IMG/VR virus record: IMGVR_UViG_3300042922_000620
Coordinates: 1 to 63,802 of that record
Direction: 5' to 3' (one strand)
Source: a virus
DNA length: 63,802 nt
Both the position numbers and the translations under genes were made by a program. Every line of letters starts with the position of its first letter. The first letter of the stretch is position 1. Under the pieces are notes generated by a model. It made no database searches. It had not been told where the DNA came from and saw nothing but the letters and a program-made list of their open reading frames with translations. Positions 20,872 to 27,145 of this stretch are shown here, one piece after another.

Positions 20872-21822
20872 ATGCCTCGCACCGCATCCCGCCTCAAGGC
20901 TGTCCGCGGCCACGCGATGCGCGCCACGCGCGTCGACAACTGCGGCCGCCTCGTCATCGGCGAGTACAACCAGGCCGTCTCCGAGGGTGTGGTCACCACG
21001 ACCTTCACCCCGCGCACCATCGAGACGCCGGAGATCAACGTCCCGAACTTCGCCGGCAAGCGCTGCGTCTACGAGGCGTCGTCCGTCGACCTCGCCGGGT
21101 ACGACGTGACGATCGAGTTCTGCGACGTCGACTTCGAGATGTTCGAGATCATCACCAAGCAGCCGCTCGTGCTCGACGCGTCCGGCCGAGTGGTGGGTCT
21201 CGAGATCGACACCGCGATCAAACTGACCGACGGCTTCGCCCTCGAGACGTGGACGGGCGCCCAGGGCTCCGACGCGTGCGAGGACCCCGACGCCGAGGGC
21301 CAGTGGGGCTACCTGCTCATGCCGCACCTCAAGGGCGGCATCGTGGGCGACATCACGGTGGCCAACGACGCGGTGAACTTCACGATCACCGGCGCCGGTA
21401 CTCGCGAGGGCAACTACTGGGCCAACGGCCCGTACGCCGTCGAACTCGACGAGAACGGCGTGCCCGCCGCGCTGGCACAGGCCGTGTCGCGCACGGCCGC
21501 GCTGCGCATCGAGGTCGTCTCGGTCGCGCCGCCGACCGAACTGGTGGGCGCACGTCCGGTGCTCGACCCGGCGCTCCCGGCGCTGACGTCGATCGCCGCC
21601 ACGGAGGACGCCGGGGATGTCACGGGCATGACCGCGGACTTCGCGACCACGCCCGCCGCCACCGGCCCCGTGTGGTGGGACTTCGGCGACGGAGACTGGG
21701 ACCTCGTGGTCGCTCCCGGCGCCGCATCGCACCAGTACACCGACCCGGGCACCTACACGGTGCGCGCGTCCCAGAACGGCATCGCCTGGCCGACGACCAC
21801 GGTCGTCGTCCCTTTCCCGTAG
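20872..21822 (+). CDS. Major tail protein with C-terminal PKD-like domain
   Basis: 316 residues. WGYLLMPHLKGGIVGDITV with VNFTITGAGTREGNYWANGP (about 143-190) is the actinophage tail-tube pattern. Residues about 245-316 form an Ig-like PKD domain (VWWDFGDGDWDLVVAPGA; HQYTDPGTYTVRAS), which would decorate the tube surface and bind carbohydrate or cell wall. The stop is preceded by the slippery heptamer CCCTTTC in correct phase at 21810-21816 (see the extended product). Confidence 0.88.
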   Translation: MPRTASRLKAVRGHAMRATRVDNCGRLVIGEYNQAVSEGVVTTTFTPRTIETPEINVPNFAGKRCVYEASSVDLAGYDVTIEFCDVDFEMFEIITKQPLVLDASGRVVGLEIDTAIKLTDGFALETWTGAQGSDACEDPDAEGQWGYLLMPHLKGGIVGDITVANDAVNFTITGAGTREGNYWANGPYAVELDENGVPAALAQAVSRTAALRIEVVSVAPPTELVGARPVLDPALPALTSIAATEDAGDVTGMTADFATTPAATGPVWWDFGDGDWDLVVAPGAASHQYTDPGTYTVRASQNGIAWPTTTVVVPFP

Positions 21823-21887
21823 GCCCCACCACTGGGTTCGGGTATGGCCCGTTCGGTCATGGAGCATTCGGCCACGGCCCCGCCTGA
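20872..21887 (+). other. Predicted -1 frameshift product of the major tail gene
   Basis: If ribosomes slip -1 on C-CCT-TTC (21810-21816), translation bypasses the TAG at 21820-21822 and adds about 23 residues, ending GFGYGPFGHGAFGHGPA, before the TGA at 21885-21887. The Gly/Phe/His repeat is unlikely to arise by chance. The result would be a minority tail-tube subunit with an added glycine-aromatic tip. Confidence 0.6.
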
Positions 21888-21911
21888 ACTCAGTGGTTCA
21901 GGCGGGGCCGT
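21874..21911 (+). terminator. Strong hairpin after the major tail gene
   Basis: ACGGCCCCGCCTGAAC (21874-21889) pairs perfectly with GTTCAGGCGGGGCCGT (21896-21911) over a six-base loop, followed by TCCCCT. The 5' arm contains the frameshift stop codon. It is 58 bases beyond the slippery site, too far for a standard stimulator, so termination is the simpler role. Confidence 0.8.
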
Positions 21912-21932: not shown

Positions 21933-23315
21933 ATGCCCTTCACGACTGACATTCCCGCGGAGAACACCGACCCGTGGTACGCGGAGATGGCCGCGGCGTG
22001 GGAGTCCCTCAGGGTGTTCATCGATGGGCTCGAGAGCGACATCGCACTCCCTCCCGACCTGTCGATCTACACCCGGTTCGTGTTCGTGACCGACGGCAAC
22101 CCGAGCCCGGCACGACCTGGCCCTCCGGGTGGGCTCGTGCTCTGGATCGACACCCGTACCACCCAGAGCACGGATCCGCCGGCGATGGGTTCGCAGGACA
22201 TCATCATCGGCGGGGCACCGGCGCCCGCGCCCGAGCCACCCACGATCATCACGACCGCGTTCAACTCGATGGTGATGAACTCTCCCTTCACGCAGCAGAT
22301 CGTCGTGGTCGGCGATCCGCCGCTCACCTTCGGAGCGACCGACCTGCCCGCGGGCCTGACGATGGGTGCCACCGGCATCGTCTCCGGCACGCCGACAGTC
22401 GCTGGCTCTGGCAGTGCATCGGTGACCGTCGAGAATGTGGCGGGCAGCGACGAGCAGGTCATCCCCTGGACGGTGGCCGCCTCGCTGTCGCCGCCTGTTC
22501 TCGGGCCGCCCACGCTCAACGAGATGACCCAGAACCAGGCGTTCACGCAGACGCTGACCAATACGGGCGGCCCCATCGCGTCGGTCAGCACACTCGGCAC
22601 CGTTCCCCCAGGACTCTCGGTGTCGCTCAATGGTGGACTGCCTGTCGTGGCCGGTACTCCCACGGGGTCGGGGGCATACTCGTTCACCGTGCGCGCGACG
22701 AACGCCGCCGGATCCGACGACCAGTTGTACACCGGCACGATCACCGCCGCCCCGCCGACCGGCTCCGCCTCCGTCTTCGGCTCGGCGAGCCCTGGTGCGG
22801 CCGACATCTACACCGACGGTGGTGGATCGCTGCGACAGGGCAACCGGTTCCAGACTGACCTGGCCGTGGTCGTCACGGGCCTCAAGTTGTGGAACCCACC
22901 GGCGGCGGACCCGACGCTGCTCGGCACCGACGTCACGGCGTACGCCTACCTGAACGACTACCAGGGCGCGCAGTTGGCCGGCTCCATCACCTGGGGCTCA
23001 ACTCCGGTGGCGACGAAGGTGCACACCGCGACGCGCGTGGCCGGGGAGTGGACGGAGATCCTGTTCGACGAGCCGATCACGCTGCCCGCGCTGACCACCA
23101 CTCCGGGCGAGAACGACGTACTCACCCTCGCGGTGCAGTACGCGGGCGGCCAGTACTACATCATCGTCCCGGGCCTGCTGGCCGATCCGATCTTCTCGGC
23201 CGCGGGGCATGTGTCGCTTTCGCAGGCGAGCGACCCCGGTCGTGGCGTGAACACGCTCATCACCGGCACCACGACTGCCTACTACGCCATCGACATCATC
23301 TTCGAGGTGCCCTGA
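21933..23315 (+). CDS. Tail-fibre-like protein with Ig-like repeats and DUF4082-like end
   Basis: 460 residues from the ATG at 21933, chosen because AGGAGA lies eight bases upstream. An N-terminal attachment region is followed by two putative Ig (He_PIG) repeats (LPAGLTMGATGIVSGTPTVA near 135, and PPGLSVSLNGGLPVVAGTP near 228), then a C-terminal domain from about 285 resembling DUF4082 (SVFGSASPGAADIYTDGG; GNRFQTDLAVVVTGLKLW). Likely host-surface binding. Its place directly after the tail tube gene is unusual. Confidence 0.75.
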   Translation: MPFTTDIPAENTDPWYAEMAAAWESLRVFIDGLESDIALPPDLSIYTRFVFVTDGNPSPARPGPPGGLVLWIDTRTTQSTDPPAMGSQDIIIGGAPAPAPEPPTIITTAFNSMVMNSPFTQQIVVVGDPPLTFGATDLPAGLTMGATGIVSGTPTVAGSGSASVTVENVAGSDEQVIPWTVAASLSPPVLGPPTLNEMTQNQAFTQTLTNTGGPIASVSTLGTVPPGLSVSLNGGLPVVAGTPTGSGAYSFTVRATNAAGSDDQLYTGTITAAPPTGSASVFGSASPGAADIYTDGGGSLRQGNRFQTDLAVVVTGLKLWNPPAADPTLLGTDVTAYAYLNDYQGAQLAGSITWGSTPVATKVHTATRVAGEWTEILFDEPITLPALTTTPGENDVLTLAVQYAGGQYYIIVPGLLADPIFSAAGHVSLSQASDPGRGVNTLITGTTTAYYAIDIIFEVP

Positions 23316-24646
23316 TGAGACTGCTCTCCCTGCGACCTGACGGCACGTTCCCACCCTCCGCGATCCCCGGAGGCTCGGTGGGTGGCACCTTCTACCCGGA
23401 GGACTATGGCGCGGTCGGCGACGGCGTGACCGACGACACGGCGGCATGGAAGGCATGCATCGCCGCAGCGATCGCGGCCGCGCCGGACCACAACTACGCC
23501 GTCACCGTGCAGGCGCAGCCCGCCGAGTACCTCATCGCGGGCGACCCGGTGCCTGGCCACGAGTACGGCAACGCACAGATCCCCATCCCGCACAACATCG
23601 GCACGAACCGCAAGATCGTCCTCACCATCCGTGGTGCAGCCGACGCCGGGGCGTTCCTGTACTGGAACCAGAACGCGCCGCAGTCGATGGGCACCGTCCT
23701 CAAGTCCACACTCGCAGACGGTGTGGACGACGCCGAGTTCGGCACCCCCTCTGTCATCGGCGGCCCGACGAACCTGGCGGACGCCCCGCAGGACACCTAC
23801 GCGACGCTTTCCAACATGCTCGTGGTTTTCGACGGCATTCAGATCCAGGTGCCCTACGCCGCCACCGCGCTCATCGGCATCGACCTCCGGCTCGTCGCGA
23901 ACGCCAGCCTGGTCACTGCGTCCGTCTTCGCGGATCGCTCGCTGAACACCGTGCCGGCCATCGGCGCCCCGACCGAGATCACCACCGCGGGCGTCTACAT
24001 GCCGCGCACCGGGAACAACGTCCGCAACACCATCGGGGCGTACACCTCCGAGGGACTCGGGATCGGGATCGCCCTCGGCGAGCACACGCAGGCGGCGTTC
24101 ATCGGCCTGGTCTACTGCAACCGCGGCGTCGTCATCCAGGGCACCGGCGGCCCGCAGTGGCCGGACGGTACGCAGCGCTACACCACACACGGTTTCCAGA
24201 TCGACCACCTGCTGGTCGAGGCGACCTACGTCTGGCTGTACAACAACGGCGCCAACGCCCAGGTGGTCATCGATCTCATGGGCGGCGAGGGCGTCACGGC
24301 GTTCACCGAGCACGTCTACGACCCCAACGACCGGCTCGTCGGCCGGATCAACTTGCTCGACATCTACCAGCAGTTCCTGACCATCAACGGGGCTGCCGGC
24401 ATGCGGATCATCAACGACCAGATCGCGCCGGGACCGCGCGCCGACCAGCCCGCCCTGACGCCCGGCGTGGAGGTGGTGAACCCGTACTACCGCGACGCGC
24501 TGGTCGGGATCACCGGCGCCGTGACGGACGTCACGATCGGCGGCGTGTCGATGGGCGCGACCCCGGGGCAGTACCTGGTTCCCAGTGGCTCGAGCATCGA
24601 GGTCGCCTCGGCGGGGACACCGGACTGGGAATGGCTGCTGCTGTGA
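23315..24646 (+). CDS. Tailspike-type beta-helix protein
   Basis: 443 residues; start overlaps the previous stop (TGATGA). FYPEDYGAVGDGVTDDTAAW at about 27-46 is the hallmark N-terminus of pectate-lyase-like right-handed beta helices in phage tailspikes, followed by many short beta repeats. It probably recognises or cleaves a host glycan. The active site cannot be assigned from sequence. Confidence 0.82.
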   Translation: MRLLSLRPDGTFPPSAIPGGSVGGTFYPEDYGAVGDGVTDDTAAWKACIAAAIAAAPDHNYAVTVQAQPAEYLIAGDPVPGHEYGNAQIPIPHNIGTNRKIVLTIRGAADAGAFLYWNQNAPQSMGTVLKSTLADGVDDAEFGTPSVIGGPTNLADAPQDTYATLSNMLVVFDGIQIQVPYAATALIGIDLRLVANASLVTASVFADRSLNTVPAIGAPTEITTAGVYMPRTGNNVRNTIGAYTSEGLGIGIALGEHTQAAFIGLVYCNRGVVIQGTGGPQWPDGTQRYTTHGFQIDHLLVEATYVWLYNNGANAQVVIDLMGGEGVTAFTEHVYDPNDRLVGRINLLDIYQQFLTINGAAGMRIINDQIAPGPRADQPALTPGVEVVNPYYRDALVGITGAVTDVTIGGVSMGATPGQYLVPSGSSIEVASAGTPDWEWLLL

Positions 24647-26516: not shown

Positions 26517-26969
26517 ATGCTCGAGTTCACGAAGGCAGTCGAGGCGAAGGTCCGCGAGGAGGCCGATCCCGACGAGGATGTCGTGGAGGTGAACCTCTGG
26601 GGCCTCAAGGTCCAGGCTCGCCGCATGACCACCACCCAGGCCGCCCTGCTCATGGGCTCCGGCGCTCGGCCGATGAGCGAGCAGACCGCCGCGATTCTCG
26701 GCACCATCGAGGCGATGATGGGCATCCGGGCGCGACGCCACGTCCAGGAACTCATCTTCGCCGGCCAGATCGAGATGTCGGACCTGTTGGGCGGGAACGA
26801 CAGGACCGAGATGGGCGTCATCGATGCCGTGATCGAGGAGTTCACTGGCCGCCCTACCCAGCCGTCTACCGTCTCTTCGCCATCGCGGGCCACTGGTGGG
26901 CGGAGATCGACGGGCCGCTCGCCGGGCAAAGGGTCGACGCGCTCGACCTCCCCCTCCACCGATTCCTGA
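26517..26969 (+). CDS. Tail assembly chaperone, G-type product
   Basis: 150 residues; ribosome site AAAGGGG. The first 112 residues are the chaperone domain (VVEVNLWGLKVQARRMTTTQ; ILGTIEAMMGIRARRHVQEL); the last 38 (TQPSTVSSPSRATGGRRSTG) look like the out-of-use frame of the downstream half. It should assist tape-measure folding in tail assembly. See the G-T fusion entry. Confidence 0.82.
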   Translation: MLEFTKAVEAKVREEADPDEDVVEVNLWGLKVQARRMTTTQAALLMGSGARPMSEQTAAILGTIEAMMGIRARRHVQELIFAGQIEMSDLLGGNDRTEMGVIDAVIEEFTGRPTQPSTVSSPSRATGGRRSTGRSPGKGSTRSTSPSTDS

Positions 26970-27145
26970 ACCTGATCTACTCGTGGGCCGCTCAGCGGAT
27001 CGACCCCGAGCAGTACTCGAGTGTGTCGCTGTGGCGCGCAGATCTTGAGGCGCCGCTAAACGGGCGCAGACGCAAGGTCAGCGATAGAGTGGCGGCGGAA
27101 GACTTCGCCATGTTCCAGCAGGCACAGGCGGCTCTGAACGGCTGA
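26517..27145 (+). CDS. Tail assembly chaperone, G-T frameshift product
   Basis: A -1 shift moves translation into a frame that reads YPAVYRLFAIAGHWWAEIDG and continues to the TGA at 27143-27145, about 209 residues. The shift must occur at or before 26855, where the alternate frame begins the recognisable T domain. I see no canonical X-XXY-YYZ site; CCC-TAC at 26852-26857 lets only the P-site tRNA re-pair. The pair G/G-T before the tape measure is the normal siphovirus arrangement. Confidence 0.72.

Follow-up and report, generated by a model that had tools for sequence, protein, structure and literature searches.

A candidate -1 frameshift at the end of a phage major tail protein gene that probably adds a docking tag for the neighboring fiber-like protein

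Our best explanation for the end of the major tail protein (MTP) gene in the viral DNA analyzed here (the window: 63,802 nucleotides, positions 1 to 63,802 of IMG/VR record IMGVR_UViG_3300042922_000620) is that a -1 frameshift adds to some of the tail subunits a short docking tag for the fiber encoded immediately downstream, and we give this combined reading a probability of about 0.65. Judged from the sequence, the tag would very probably be produced by a programmed -1 frameshift. We also favor, with noticeably less confidence, that the tag docks the adaptor segment of the downstream fiber; contact between tag and adaptor is what we infer, and the linkage of the two is a confounder. In this family of phages of soil bacteria, the tag comes and goes with the neighboring tail-fiber gene and is therefore probably a peg for that fiber.

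The window comes from an uncultured virus, and its MTP gene is closest to those of the Microbacterium cluster EG phages (Squashvirus, Gillianvirus), whose counterparts carry the annotation 'major tail protein'. This annotation of the relatives and the match to PHROG 792 (Table 1) identify the product as a tail tube protein. Its C-terminus is a PKD domain at residues 246-299 (Pfam PKD_4, 1.3e-6, above the cut-off of that family). An AlphaFold2 model made from a 40-sequence alignment is mostly beta, with a pLDDT of 86 and a pTM of 0.81, and in the PDB it is matched best by phage neck and tail-tube proteins and by PKD domains; the TM-scores of these matches are low and the fold is for this reason taken as supporting evidence only. 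Searching with the single protein returned no relatives of the MTP, and an alignment-based search returned 80 loci. The passages retrieved from the paper on cluster EG (PMC7302621) note the placement of the MTP gene upstream of the connector genes as atypical, and within the open-access literature searched these passages make no mention of a frameshift at the end of the gene.

Table 1. Features of the MTP gene end and the downstream cassette in the window.
Feature	Position	Strand	Observation
MTP (tail tube) gene, short form, 316 aa	20872..21822	+	PHROG 792 major tail protein, E 2e-69
Slippery heptamer C_CCT_TTC, in phase, one codon ahead of TAG	21810..21816	+	Same position in 25/25 sequences of the CCCTTTC type
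Overlapping second in-phase heptamer T_TTC_CCG, which would yield the same product	21813..21819	+	Not in the Squash/Nike group
0-frame stop TAG of the MTP gene	21820..21822	+	
-1 frame extension, 23 codons PVGPTTGFGYGPFGHGAFGHGPA and TGA	21816..21887	+	Purifying selection in the -1 frame only
Gly/Phe/Tyr/His repeat tag GFGYGPFGHGAFGHGPA, proposed docking peptide	21834..21884	+	Sole tag of its type in the six-frame translation of the window
Perfect 16-bp hairpin (inverted repeat), 5' arm holding the -1 frame TGA	21874..21911	+	Conserved, with compensatory change
Fiber-like protein gene, N-terminal adaptor segment (MPFTTDIPAENTDPWYAEMAAAWESLRVFIDGLE) and Ig-like He_PIG domain, proposed partner of the tag	21933..23315	+	Adaptor HMM E 3.4e-13; He_PIG E 8.5e-13
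Pectate-lyase-like tail spike, 443 aa, same inserted cassette	23315..24646	+	PHROG 27156 tail spike, E 1.6e-5; Pfam PF12708, E 7.7e-4, below its cut-off

The MTP open reading frame of the window ends GTC CCT TTC CCG TAG. The initial annotation had read C-CCT-TTC here in the exact X-XXY-YYZ phase and had proposed that a -1 slip would carry ribosomes past the stop to a TGA within a strong hairpin; we find the heptamer so placed at 21810-21816, the TGA at 21885-21887 and the inverted repeat at 21874-21911. Two in-phase heptamers overlap at this point and CCCTTTC is the conserved one, T_TTC_CCG being absent from the Squash/Nike group. CCCTTTC occurs only once on the + strand of the 63.8-kb window. 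The codon CCT accounts for 37 of the 439 Pro codons in the 14 window reading frames counted.

We read the same region in 25 sequences of the CCCTTTC type: the window, 16 cultured Microbacterium phages (Phinky, Nike, SallyK, Fizzles, Fregley, RubyRalph, Squash, Rowlf, Pepe25, BirdInFrench, Marcie, Hyperion, Gazebo, BabyDotz, SadLad and Casend) and eight IMG/VR contigs, three of which (L030, L038 and L074) look like copies of cultured phages; the set holds 16 distinct extensions. Each of the 25 has CCCTTTC in phase, at a constant 13 nt from the end of the 0-frame stop, the codon before the stop is CCG, GCC or ACC, and the -1 frame encodes in every case a Gly/aromatic/His repeat extension of 20-23 aa, such as PVGPGFGYGHGPYGHGPYGH or RLSPGAGFGHGPFGHGPFGHGPV. 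When sequences of equal length are compared, the variable columns fall on -1 frame codon positions 1/2/3 as 10/4/16 and 2/3/12. Three non-overlapping pairs differ at 10 amino acids in the -1 frame against 20 expected if the same base changes are relocated at random (0 of 2000 simulations were as low), while the other two frames show differences at or above expectation and no constraint. The -1 frame is thus conserved as coding sequence, with purifying selection at the amino-acid level. The initial annotation had left the conservation of this frame in homologs to be checked and held that loss of the frame or heptamer in relatives would count against a frameshift; the protein-level conservation (10 differences against 20) answers the former, and on the latter the opposite is seen, the heptamer being invariant in 25/25 and heptamer and tag being gained and lost together. 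A chance heptamer is ruled out by the in-phase conservation in 25/25, the selection on the -1 frame, the single occurrence on the + strand and the association of heptamer and tag. An error of sequencing or annotation is ruled out by the identical arrangement in 16 separately sequenced cultured genomes. All 16 of the cultured Microbacterium phage loci whose feature tables were read leave the predicted long MTP form unannotated, GenBank giving the short form only.

The slip site itself has been exchanged among relatives whose -1 frame encodes the same kind of tag. The MTP gene of L020 ends ACG GGC CCC TGA and so provides the heptamer GGGCCCC, and that of L100, which has a different C-terminus with no PKD match, ends GCG GGA AAA GCG TAG and provides GGGAAAA. 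Among 76 non-redundant MTP loci, 14 have both heptamer and tag, none has the heptamer only, one has the tag only and 61 have neither (Fisher p 2e-14); leaving out L096 and L100, which were retrieved by a search for the tag, the counts are 12, 0, 1 and 61 in the same order. The single tag-only locus (L032) ends ACA GGC CCT TAG, with a -1 frame tag and no canonical heptamer, and perhaps represents either slippage of a single tRNA on the CCT ahead of the stop or a site that has decayed. The MTPs closest to that of the window (L013 and L014, 68% identical) have no tag, L013 ending CCG TTC GCC TGA with neither heptamer nor tag, which indicates that the tag is dispensable in some phages. The tagged sequences do not form one clade on the tree of the MTP core (p-AU 2e-36) and at least six gains or losses are needed, which makes the tag a mosaic module. 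In six examples of distant MTPs, from phages of Gordonia, Mycobacterium and Streptomyces and other Microbacterium phages, both the tag and an adaptor gene next door are absent. Gordonia phage Ribeye (L281) has an in-phase CCCCCCG near its MTP stop with no tag in the -1 frame, probably by chance.

The gene that follows the tag is the second part of the pattern. In all the -1-tagged MTP loci that we read, the next gene starts about 100-125 nt 3' of the MTP gene and opens with a segment like MPFNDNLPAENTDPWYASFVAAWGNLKTFVNGLE, which we call the adaptor segment and which contains an N-terminal '..PAEN.DPWY..'; next to untagged MTPs lies usually a head-tail connector gene (for example MALCYPSDTDWGCAF) or another unrelated gene. 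An HMM built from the first 45 residues in six cultured phages finds the adaptor gene directly 3' (E<0.01) of 15/15 -1-tagged MTPs against 0/55 untagged ones, and of 9/9 against 0/55 when those six phages are left out. We prefer this count to one made with a regular expression, which also matched 10 untagged loci that were judged by eye to be head-tail connectors or noise. Independent contrasts between tag and adaptor gene point in the same direction in 6/6 cases, and the distance between tags correlates with the distance between adaptors once the distances of MTP core and PKD are controlled for (partial rank r 0.57, p 0.0002). The types are also paired: Tyr-type tags occur with '..AARNTLDNQLKATANA', Phe-type tags with '..VAAWGNLKTFVNGLE' and Leu-type tags with '..VVGFIGGLRTFVNALE'. 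Nike and SallyK have almost identical MTP cores and yet differ by F/L at 3/3 tag repeats and by W/F at the matching adaptor stretch. As far as these sequences go, tag type follows adaptor type and not MTP phylogeny. Tag and adaptor gene lie within about 120 bp of each other, so that joint transfer could result from linkage alone, and the entire 3' segment may move as one unit. In the cultured phages, the PHROG matches of the proteins encoded by this next gene are to minor tail protein and virion structural protein families. The gene after the adaptor gene encodes the pectate-lyase-like spike in the window, a phosphodiesterase in Nike, Fregley and RubyRalph and a protein with a weak alpha/beta hydrolase match in Fizzles, whose adaptor protein itself has an arabinofuranosidase match. 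A search for solved structures of the tag, the adaptor proteins or the tag-adaptor pair returned none. The initial annotation had passed over the link between the tag and this next gene, a tail-fiber-like protein with a matching N-terminal segment.

The mechanism that we propose begins with slippage at the heptamer in vivo, which we infer. Some of the ribosomes on the MTP mRNA would slip back one base at C_CCT_TTC and bypass the TAG, with tRNA-Pro presumably moving from CCT to CCC, a codon with which a GGG anticodon would pair better, and tRNA-Phe presumably moving from TTC to TTT. A shifted ribosome would then add 20-23 residues of the Gly/aromatic/His repeat and stop inside or just before the strong hairpin. 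Tails would be built mostly of short MTP. A minority of subunits would bear the tag just beyond the PKD domain, presumably exposed at the surface of the tail, and this tag would most likely dock the adaptor segment at the N-terminus of the next-door tail-fiber-like protein. Docking would hang this protein along the tail tube, and perhaps with it the enzyme encoded next (a pectate-lyase-like spike, phosphodiesterase or esterase), in a number set by the efficiency of frameshifting. There is perhaps an even chance that frameshifting acts as a dosage valve for side-fiber attachment, by giving a generic C-terminal docking peptide to a minority of tail-tube subunits, and that the tag-adaptor pair is a portable system, found also in frame on other virion proteins, for plugging receptor-binding or wall-degrading proteins onto tails. 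If the docking model is true, it explains the purpose of the frameshifted tail-tube extension, shows how the efficiency of the shift could determine how many copies of an accessory fiber are attached and makes the Gly-aromatic repeat tag with the adaptor of the next gene a short signature for matching a virion protein to its fiber.

Other phage proteins carry a tag of this kind as an in-frame C-terminal fusion and are followed by a gene whose N-terminus is similar to the adaptor segment (matched by eye), which argues that tag and adaptor belong together beyond their position. These in-frame cases are L095, L097, L107, L128, L143, L164, L179, L185, L195, L197 and gp37/gp38 of Streptomyces phage RosePharie. 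In RosePharie (L277), the major capsid gene is immediately followed by the gene of a small protein that has the tag (GFGFGGFGEGPFGG) at its end, and the gene after that, annotated as a minor tail protein, starts MVYTPIPKGTQNWDEPVNDAF; this pair may be a capsid-attached spike and not a tail protein. Phage virion proteins commonly contain the Gly-aromatic repeat GYGxGxYGxGxYG (L101-L220), which is often internal in long proteins, one of them a PHROG 3287 virion structural protein, and sometimes C-terminal and directly ahead of a fiber or spike gene. A pattern scan of genome contigs gave bacterial matches that are apparently unrelated.

Frameshifted MTPs are already known; the case here differs in the direction of the predicted shift (-1 where theirs is +1), in the addition of a short repeat tag where they gain a domain, and in the link to a fiber gene. 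In Bacillus phage SPP1, a +1 shift at CCC_UAA adds an 87-aa FN3 domain to gp17.1 to give gp17.1*, the short tail tube form being enough for viability and the long form being exposed on the tail (PMC6316719, PMC8718954). The window resembles SPP1 in having two predicted forms of the tail tube protein, the long one made by a frameshift at the last codons, and differs in the predicted -1 tandem slip and in a low-complexity repeat of 20-23 aa after an in-frame PKD domain. In the lactococcal 936 group, an Ig-like MTP domain is followed by a +1 'shifty stop', CCC_UAG, and the shift gives TpeX, whose added carbohydrate-binding module is about 200 aa long; TpeX has been seen as a tail decoration, and tpeX is found only in some phages of the group (PMC4759559, PMC6669499). 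The window shares with TpeX the frameshift after an Ig-like MTP domain and the mixture of short and long subunits (both predicted here) and the presence in only some phages, whereas what it adds is a short repeat, and the link is to a separate fiber gene. Its site is thus a conserved -1 heptamer and not the +1 shift at CCC-stop of SPP1 and TpeX, and its extension is a Gly/aromatic/His repeat and not a folded Ig, FN3 or carbohydrate-binding domain. The tail shaft protein of Listeria phages PSA, A118 and A500 also has a second product made by a frameshift at the end of the major tail gene (PMC5009743); the initial annotation had cited PSA as a precedent, which exists, although the shift there is +1, at CCC_UGA, and not -1. 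The lambda-type tail chaperones gpG/gpGT, which are absent from the virion, and other -1 slips at X_XXY_YYZ (PMC5009743) likewise involve a -1 tandem slip close to where a tail gene ends, the gene and the purpose being different. The window itself has a likely tail assembly chaperone pair at 26517-27145, in overlapping frames with the second frame at -1, and no canonical X_XXY_YYZ heptamer in the first of its two reading frames.

The alternative that survives best, which we still regard as unlikely, accepts the frameshift and takes the tag as a weak host-surface or wall-binding decoration, like gp17.1* or TpeX, that binds no other phage protein. Aromatic/His-rich peptides could bind glycans or wall polymers. 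The frameshifted MTP extensions already described are moreover proposed or shown to bind the host surface (PMC6316719, PMC8718954, PMC6669499). Such a decoration would leave unaccounted for that the -1 tag is never found without the adaptor gene and that tag type follows adaptor type, and the tag is far too short for a folded binding domain. We consider it quite improbable that the tag is translated and merely hitch-hikes, as a functionless remnant of an older in-frame fusion that was recombined in with the fiber cassette: the physical linkage of tag and adaptor gene and the gain and loss of the cassette as a whole agree with this, but a useless remnant would decay, and here selection maintains the -1 frame amino acids and three kinds of heptamer are kept in phase.

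The stretch that includes the inverted repeat has a z of -4.4, and the hairpin is probably a transcription terminator or 3'-end stabilizer that lacks a U run; a terminator scan found no canonical terminator with a U run. The position of this strong, conserved hairpin directly 3', overlapping the last codons in the window type, could suggest that the whole post-stop stretch is conserved as an RNA or DNA element (a terminator or mRNA stabilizer) with an incidental -1 reading frame. This is highly improbable, since third positions of the -1 frame take most of the changes (16/30 and 12/17 variable columns) with the amino acids conserved, the stretch ahead of the hairpin has no shared fold and peptides of this kind are encoded in frame elsewhere. 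Adjacent to the slip site we found no conserved structure that could be an RNA stimulator (z-scores -0.2 to -2.1); a stem right after the site in some sequences (L004, L005) is a fold not shared across sequences. Inspection by eye of the region upstream of the window heptamer showed no Shine-Dalgarno-like motif.

Production of the tag as a separate micro-ORF or by stop-codon readthrough, with no -1 slip, is the least probable reading of all: a similar peptide does follow the stop in the 0 frame in four loci, but the -1 frame position of the tag in the CCCTTTC group means that readthrough cannot yield it, the extension of the window and its relatives has no ATG, GTG or TTG in the -1 frame before the tag, and the heptamer goes with the tag. 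In those four loci (L040, L054, L055 and L056) the tag-like peptide after the MTP TAG (for example TQGVDYGLGVFGSGAFGGV, then a stop) precedes an adaptor-like gene (MATPFPTVPAGDVWGQKLIDAV), the adaptor-type N-terminus being matched by eye only in three of the 0-frame cases, and readthrough or a micro-ORF is there a possible other route to the same kind of tag.

The predicted long MTP form can be checked directly, because the cultured Microbacterium phages grow in teaching laboratories. The computed junction-crossing tryptic peptide of the window long form is ASQNGIAWPTTTVVVPFPVGPTTGFGYGPFGHGAFGHGPA, with a monoisotopic mass of 3952.93 Da, and the computed junction-crossing C-terminal peptide of the Fregley long form is ASTNGAWVSATPVVIPFPVGPGFGYGHGPYGHGPYGH, of 3706.78 Da.
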